Shown here: piece by piece, positions 1 to 48,812 of the stretch
Position numbering within the stretch: position 1 is the stretch's first letter
Layout of the letters: each line of letters opens with the position of its first letter
NCBI GenBank assembly: GCA_016218705.1
Contig: JACRDC010000016.1
Coordinates: forward strand, 1-48,812
Source of the DNA: Desulfarculus sp.
Lineage (GTDB): Bacteria; Desulfobacterota; Desulfarculia; Desulfarculales; Desulfarculaceae
Reading direction: 5' to 3'
Length of the DNA stretch: 48,812 nt
The notes under the pieces: model-generated
What the model was told of the DNA's origin: nothing
The model's database searches: none
Seen by the model: only the letters and a program-made list of their open reading frames with translations
Made by a program: the position numbers and the translations under genes

Positions 1-9
1 ACTTGGTAT

Positions 10-156
10 GCGGGCCATGGATCCACCCCAAGCAAACTGCGTTTGCTTGGGGACCCCGGGGAATGGCCCGCCGGGCGCGAAAGCGCCCGGGAGGCCGGGC
101 AAAACCACGTTTTTGCCCGGCCGATCAGCAATCAAAGCCATGAATGGCTTTGATTG
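10..156. other. Array of four consecutive perfect hairpins
   Basis: Four back-to-back inverted repeats fill this gene-free left edge. Hairpin 1 pairs 26-37 with 41-52 (12 bp, 3-base loop) and sits inside an outer stem pairing 10-18 with 63-71. Hairpin 2 pairs 71-78 with 83-90 around a GAAA loop. Hairpin 3 pairs 94-104 with 111-121. Hairpin 4 pairs 129-140 with 145-156 around TGAA. None has the T-run of an intrinsic terminator on the plus strand. The flgM terminator lies separately at 183-213. The stems are all perfect but differ in sequence, so this is not a tandem repeat. Function unknown: a structured RNA end, a multi-hairpin transcription stop or a mobile-element end are all possible. Confidence 0.75.
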
Positions 157-182
157 CATATTTGTATGAGGCCCTCGCCCCC

Positions 183-213
183 AAAAAAGCGCACCGGCCC
201 CTGGCGGGGCCGG
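183..213 (-). terminator. Rho-independent terminator of the flgM operon
   Basis: Read on the minus strand, an 8-bp GC stem (206-213 with 194-201, four-base loop) is followed within about five bases by a run of six T (188-183). It lies about 35 bases after the flgM stop codon, as expected for the end of this two-gene transcript. Confidence 0.8.
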
Positions 214-247
214 CAAGAGAAGGCGGCGCGGTGGGGCGGCGGGGGCT

Positions 248-565
248 TTAGACCACCTCGCGCAGAAAGTCCATAATCATCTTCTGGGCCACCTTGTCGG
301 CATCCACCTGGTATTCGTGGTTGTCTATGCGGCGGCGGATCTCGGCCACGCGCCCCTCGCGCACCTCGGGGGTGTTGGCCAGGGTTTCGGCGGCCTTGGC
401 CATCTCGCGGCTGCGCCCGGACAACTCCACGCGGTCGCTGGCCGCCGCGGCGGCCGCGGCCCCCGAGGCGGTGGCCGCCTTGTCGCCGGCCCGGCCGGCG
501 GCGCCGGCGCGGCCTCTCTCCTCCAGGGGCTTGCTGCCCAGCCCCAGGGTTTCCTTGATCTGCAT
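248..565 (-). CDS. flgM: Anti-sigma-28 factor FlgM
   Basis: Small (105 aa) FlgM-family protein, which holds the flagellar sigma factor FliA (sigma-28) inactive until it is exported through the finished hook-basal body. The C-terminal half carries the family pattern: DRVELSGRSREMAKA, then EVREGRVAEIRRRIDNHEYQVDADKVAQKM and a final MIMDFLREV helix, which is the sigma-binding part. The N-terminal half is a low-complexity Ala/Gly-rich linker, as expected for a secreted, largely unfolded protein. It is the second gene after the DVU0524-like partner (12-base gap), and both follow the sigma-28 promoter at 1041-1068. This gives the classic loop in which FliA drives its own inhibitor. The ATG at 565 is the only sensible start. 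Confidence 0.93.
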   Translation of the reverse strand: MQIKETLGLGSKPLEERGRAGAAGRAGDKAATASGAAAAAAASDRVELSGRSREMAKAAETLANTPEVREGRVAEIRRRIDNHEYQVDADKVAQKMIMDFLREVV

Positions 566-32150: not shown

Positions 32151-32236
32151 GCGAGAGTGGCGGAACTGGTAGACGCACTGGACTTAGGATCCAGCGGGCC
32201 TGGCCCTTGGGGGTTCGAGCCCCCCCTCTCGCACCA
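32151..32236 (+). tRNA. tRNA-Leu (anticodon UAG), CCA encoded
   Basis: 86 nt including CCA. The acceptor GCGAGAG pairs with CTCTCGC, discriminator A then CCA. The anticodon stem CTGGA/TCCAG flanks loop CTTAGGA, giving UAG (reads CUA/CUG-type Leu codons). A long variable arm (class II) and the T-loop GGTTCGAGCC are present. D-loop has TGGTAGACG, as usual for Leu. Confidence 0.96.
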
Positions 32237-48486: not shown

Positions 48487-48604
48487 TTGGAGTTGTGGAT
48501 TAATACGCATTTCAGATCAGACGTATGGTTTTCTCGTCAGGTTTCCTCTGGGTACAGCCCTTACGGTATAGGCGGCCCAAGAAAGCCTAAGCGGTTTCTT
48601 TTTA

Positions 48605-48776
48605 TGTCCCGCTCAGCCGCCCGGCCATACTGGCTTTGCCGATGCGGGTGCCGGCGCGGGGTGGACTCTCCGCCCTGGCGTGGGCAGGGGCCGCAGGTAT
48701 CCCGTATTCTTTGCCGGGTTGGATCATAGCCGCCCCCTGCCGGTGCCCTAGGAATGGCCGGGCTAAGAGCGGGACA
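48605..48776. ncRNA. Long structured RNA candidate
   Basis: Three nested helices: 48605-48614 with 48767-48776 (10 bp), 48620-48628 with 48754-48762 (9 bp), and 48646-48661 with 48733-48748 (16 positions, one mismatch and three G-U pairs). The apex (48662-48732) has two small hairpins. A 17-against-5-base asymmetric bubble lies between the second and third helices. Total length is about 172 nt, with no codon bias in any frame. Size and bubble recall 6S RNA but I see none of its sequence motifs, so family and strand are unsettled. Confidence 0.5.
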
Positions 48777-48812
48777 CGGGGCTTGGGCGGCCAGAAAACC
48801 AAAGCTCGCCGG

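Follow-up and report, generated by a model that had tools for sequence, protein, structure and literature searches.

The window analysed here, a stretch of 48,812 nucleotides, is contig C63 of a 126-contig, 4.2-Mb Desulfarculaceae-type MAG (G000). An array of hairpins lies at its left edge, next to the host gene flgM (Table 1). A base-by-base check of bases 10-157 gave perfect stems of 9, 12, 8, 12 and 13 bp, and the stem sequences are mutually unrelated. The original prediction had described unrelated, uniformly perfect stems and had argued against their formation by tandem duplication, and both statements are borne out. Its 9-bp outer stem, its 12-bp stem with a loop of 3, its 8-bp stem with a loop of 4 and its remaining loops of 6 and 4 bases also agree with our reading, while the last two stems measure 12 and 13 bp instead of the proposed 11 and 12 bp. 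Four of five hairpins and the enclosing stem had thus been recognised. The fifth lies across the contig start, and window bases 1-9 (ACTTGGTAT) represent the 3' arm of this 20-bp hairpin. The array is distinct from the flgM terminator, as had been stated. Folded as RNA, window bases 1-175 reach -105.7 kcal/mol, compared with -66.9 +/- 4.6 kcal/mol for shuffled sequences (z -8.5, 0/200), and the opposite strand of the array folds similarly (z -8.6 vs shuffles).

Table 1. Features at the left edge of the window and further features located in it.
Feature	Position	Strand	Basis and remarks
MITE copy, right-hand part	1..166	+	Copies of 98% identity at other genomic sites; complete copies with ends
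3' arm of left terminal 20-bp hairpin ATACCAAGTTGCGATCAAAC-GARTA-GTTTGATCGCAACTTGGTAT	1..9	+	Alignment of complete copies; truncated by contig start
Outer stem	10-18/63-71	+	9 bp, perfect; encloses 26-37/41-52
Inner hairpin	26-37/41-52	+	12 bp, loop 3; swappable module, missing from the 161-bp class
Hairpin CCGGGCGC-GAAA-GCGCCCGG	71-78/83-90 (71..90)	+	8 bp, loop GAAA
Hairpin GGCCGGGCAAAA-CCACGT-TTTTGCCCGGCC	93-104/111-122 (93..122)	+	12 bp, loop 6
Hairpin adjoining the element's right end	128-140/145-157 (128..157)	+	13 bp, loop 4
Right terminal inverted repeat	149..166	-	TACAAATATGCAATCAAA; one change relative to family TACCAATATGCAATCAAA
TNA target-site duplication, right copy (TGA)	167..169	+	Pattern of 56/70 complete copies; left copy beyond contig end
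flgM intrinsic terminator	192..215	-	Separate from the MITE
flgM (FlgM, PF04316), neighbouring host gene	248..565	-	Domain match
tRNA gene	32151-32233		Rfam RF00005, 56 bits
Second dispersed, strongly folding repeat	48503-48812		At least 310 bp, running off the window

A DNA search of the MAG with window bases 1-172 returned dozens of copies with identities of up to 98%, many of them located at contig ends. Pattern searches place the element at about 130 loci (about 97 left hairpins listed, 119 right ends, about 132 clusters). In intact copies, 36 further bases precede window base 1 and complete a 45-bp palindrome; complete copies read TACCAAGTTGCGATCAAA...TTTGATTGCATATTGGTA and open with the 20-bp hairpin. 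The window therefore holds the right-hand four-fifths of an element read TACC...GGTA, the first ~36 bases having been lost at the contig start, and for this copy itself the left end and the left duplication are missing. Copies range from 80 to 326 bp, mainly 161 and about 203 bp, and consist of hairpins only, with no transposase gene; the 77 complete ones fall into sizes of 80-82, 123-124, 148, 160-164, 199-209, 241-242 and 326 bp. Terminal inverted repeats of the form ATACCAAnnTGCrATCAAA are present at both ends. Identical 3-bp TNA sequences flank TACC...GGTA on both sides in 56 of the 70 copies with both flanks, and most of these duplications sit within YTNAR. Removing the element together with one TNA restores element-free sequences that are present elsewhere in the genome: the joined flanks of L137 equal L095 at 77 of 77 bases, and L124, L125, L038, L108 and L149 behave alike. 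Such empty sites can be recovered within the genome because these MITE copies sit in another dispersed repeat. The hairpin row is, with near certainty, a copy of a gene-less MITE, and the proposed option of a multi-hairpin element end was essentially right, the array being part of a transposable element.

Left hairpins of 45 bp and right palindromes of 50 bp that occur alone were considered as minimal elements and rejected: among six inspected by eye, only L138 has matching flanks, and they look like remnants. The second repeat at the window's right edge was found whole or in part at 20 other loci examined, one of them represented twice. It hosts several MITE insertions, and the right edge of the window represents its uninterrupted form.

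A REP/BIME-type repeat mobilised by a RAYT (Y1) transposase would likewise consist of short, dispersed, intergenic palindromes. The MITE, however, carries TNA duplications and terminal inverted repeats, and the genome contains a single Y1 match, a broken IS200-like relic (an IS200/IS605-type transposase, L050 4950-5172, G000:C126:14949-15171). A REP/BIME origin is thereby refuted for this assembly, and we give it practically no weight.

The element is modular in its organization. The slot inside the outer stem is occupied by different hairpins in different copies and is empty in the 161-bp class, and the copies of 241/242 bp contain one more hairpin within the loop of the 12-bp hairpin found at 93-122 in the window. 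Modules lost or exchanged at hairpin boundaries would be consistent with replication slippage or template switching. The 326-bp copy (L110 949-1274, G000:C118) bears the extra hairpin modules GGGCAGGGTATGACCCTGCCC, CCAAGGGG..CCCCCTTGG and ACCCTGGGGCAAGCCCCAGGGT and is flanked by matching TCA duplications.

The copies are mostly inserted outside long open frames, with 9 of 48 interrupting a frame of at least 200 codons compared with 77-83% of control positions. Such an intergenic position would suit a MITE that, once inserted, insulates transcription or terminates it in both directions, the host tolerating structured copies for this reason, and the right-hand hairpin followed by T-rich sequence does score as terminator-like. 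The intergenic bias is, however, what any tolerated insertion should show, and changes private to one copy that break a stem are not depleted after insertion. We consider the insulator or terminator role improbable, and a host function at each MITE site is not indicated. At some loci, such as L085 and L096, the TNA flanking the copy (TGA, TAA) seems to coincide with the stop codon of a gene, and the element may sit directly behind that gene.

Comparison with relatives separates the flgM locus from the element family. In the genus relative G003, the flgM region matches at 94% identity as far as window base 181, and the orthologous locus has no MITE copy, so that the insertion in the window is lineage-specific. 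Strong matches to the MITE are nevertheless present in three other genus genomes (G001-G003), and a fourth genus genome and other members of the family contain weak fragments. A lack of the stems in close relatives, which had been named as the observation that would count against a structured element, is hence seen at the flgM locus and does not extend to the element family. The array has no Rfam match at gathering score; two Rubella_3 matches below that score (E 0.14 and 0.38) were rejected as chance.

Beyond the genus, a scan of the genome collection for the MITE ends, written to leave out canonical copies and surely including some single matches that are due to chance, gave matches in Desulfobacterota, Nostoc, Calothrix, Acidobacteria, Victivallaceae and others. 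We delimited 46 short two-ended elements in other genomes across phyla, and 38 of these have a 3-bp TNA duplication. At three sites in one genome (L169, L176 and L181 of G031), the sequence starts with ATACCAAGTTGCGATCAAACATTTRCTAATGAATCGTCATTGCGAG, the same end being joined to a widespread GTCATTGCGAG repeat.

A candidate for the mobilising enzyme comes from a 1,137-bp transposon of Ca. Hydrogenedentes (L210). Both of its termini fit TACCAAnnTGCRATCAAA with zero mismatches, it is flanked by a TCA duplication, and it contains two reading frames matching HTH domains and DDE_3 (E 4.8e-22), assigned to IS630 by NCBIfam. The homologous IS630 elements L377 (on an Acaryochloris plasmid), L356 and L363 show TACC ends and TNA duplications, and in L351/L370 and L355 a right end of the form TACCAAGTTGC(A/C)ATCTAA lies past the transposase gene. 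IS630 elements usually duplicate TA as their target, and the L210-type elements and the MITE therefore look like a TNA-using branch of IS630. A search of the open-licence literature gave no paper on IS630 with a TNA duplication. Among the autonomous elements, L210 was the only one found with exactly the ends of the MITE at both termini; most IS630 relatives scanned lack TACCAA-type ends, and the DDE_3 loci of class relatives have no ATACCAA ends. No autonomous partner appeared among the end-to-end spacings or DDE_3 matches of the window's own genome, where a DDE_3 search of the 126 contigs, from which multi-copy insertion sequences can be missing, gave no match; the genus as a whole gave two weak matches. 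MITEs commonly, but not necessarily, share a genome with their cognate transposase. Shared ends and a shared target connect the IS630 transposase to the window's element, and on these grounds mobilisation of the MITE by an IS630-type enzyme is likely.

An alignment of 14 copies from the genus has pairing bases in 94.3% of the consensus-structure cells, and 17 of 69 pairs have changed on both sides. None of 500 shuffles scored as high, and no slid structure comes near, the consensus being favoured over slid versions by its derivation from the same alignment. This covariation and the very stable fold are the features expected of a structured non-coding or cis-regulatory host RNA that is selected for its fold, for example a 3' element of flgM, and the original prediction had offered an undescribed structured RNA at this site, to be checked by covariation of the stems. 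Compensatory pairs do occur, but the variation within the genome speaks against a host RNA. In six subclasses comprising 61 copies and grouped by motifs chosen by eye, variants common to at least two copies affect 6 of 780 stem sites compared with 41 of 358 loop sites (Fisher p 7e-16). For private changes, to which MAG assembly errors contribute, the rates in stems and loops are alike (0.0138 and 0.0161 per site, respectively; p 0.39), and pairing is lost in 66 of the 97 single private stem changes. As there is no loop hot spot among the private changes, the pattern of the shared variants indicates that the multiplying lineages were subject to constraint or correction, which did not act at single sites later. 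Maintenance of the structure therefore takes place in the breeding lineages of the element and not site by site through the host. Selection on structure, as previously suggested, is thus borne out in part, for the amplifying lineages, whose shared variants avoid stems, and single copies show no sign of it. With about 130 copies bearing target-site duplications, no copy at the orthologous locus of G003, no Rfam match above threshold and unconstrained stems in single copies, a host-level RNA function is unlikely, and we see very little chance that the array is a host RNA.

The hairpins seem to be of importance for the spread of the element itself. Their perfection in particular could be due not to selection but to replication template switching (quasipalindrome correction), a documented mechanism (PMC8794818, PMC7202029) that imitates compensatory change. 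In its favour, three private pair-restoring double changes were seen in single copies where random placement predicts 0.43. This excess is weak, and such doubles are too few to serve as proof of either selection or template switching. The 66 broken pairs stand uncorrected, which implies that correction is slow relative to copy age, and template switching alone leaves the stem avoidance of the subfamily-defining variants unexplained. We regard it as a possible, though doubtful, account that concerns hairpin perfection only.

The array is best explained as a modular multi-hairpin, non-autonomous DNA transposon (MITE) with IS630-type ends that is mobilised in trans by an IS630-type transposase, a reading to which we assign a probability of roughly 0.87. 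We postulate that an IS630-family (Tc1/mariner-like) DDE transposase provided in trans recognises the ~18-bp ends TACCAAnnTGCRATCAAA and mobilises the MITE, inserting it at YTNAR sites with duplication of the central TNA. The interior contributes no gene and consists of an array of swappable perfect hairpins. These hairpins may be retained through a better spread of well-folded copies, or through replication template switching that keeps rewriting one arm from the sequence of its partner within source copies. It is also conceivable, though rather doubtful, that the array itself is needed for mobility, with folded single strands or cruciforms bringing the ends together or presenting them to the IS630-type transposase.

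Comparable elements have been described in other bacteria. RUP of Streptococcus pneumoniae, an IS630-Spn1-type MITE, is a short gene-less repeat with IS630-like ends and a target-site duplication that is thought to be moved in trans (PMC3049150). The window's MITE shares its shortness, lack of genes, IS630-like ends and target-site duplication, but RUP is simple, AT-rich and 107 bp in length, whereas the present element is G+C-rich, comprises as many as five or six hairpin modules and duplicates 3-bp TNA. The BOX elements of Streptococcus are MITE-like repeats that vary in length and are composed of base-paired modules (PMC3049150). Modularity is the only feature compared here; BOX has ISSpn2 as its proposed partner and varies by the number of tandem boxB units, while the window's MITE varies by the presence, absence and swapping of unlike hairpins. 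Chunjie of Geobacter uraniireducens, a MITE family of 178-235 bp (PMC10969869), and Nezha of cyanobacteria, a MITE family linked to ISNpu3-like elements (PMC3049150), come from bacterial groups in which related ends also occur, and they are likened to the present element by description and not by end sequence. Compared with IS630 insertion sequences, the MITE has the ends and TNA duplication of L210 and encodes no transposase of the IS630 type that L210 carries. A search of the open-licence literature for the MITE end sequences returned no relevant paper, only unrelated matches, and an earlier description elsewhere is possible. We describe the MITE as an undescribed family of a known kind, modular MITEs (BOX) and IS630 MITEs (RUP) being already known.

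What appeared to be a unique multi-hairpin RNA is a copy of a mobile element, and it illustrates a trap for covariation-based RNA discovery, as the MITE alignment passes covariation tests although single copies show no constraint. The element further directs attention to a set of TNA-targeting IS630-type elements that spans phyla. If the hairpin array is needed for mobility, it would define a structure-dependent, mosaic class of IS630 MITEs whose breeding lineages are selected to stay perfectly paired. As a whole, the family lends itself to testing whether structure is maintained by the spread of the element, by template switching or by host function.
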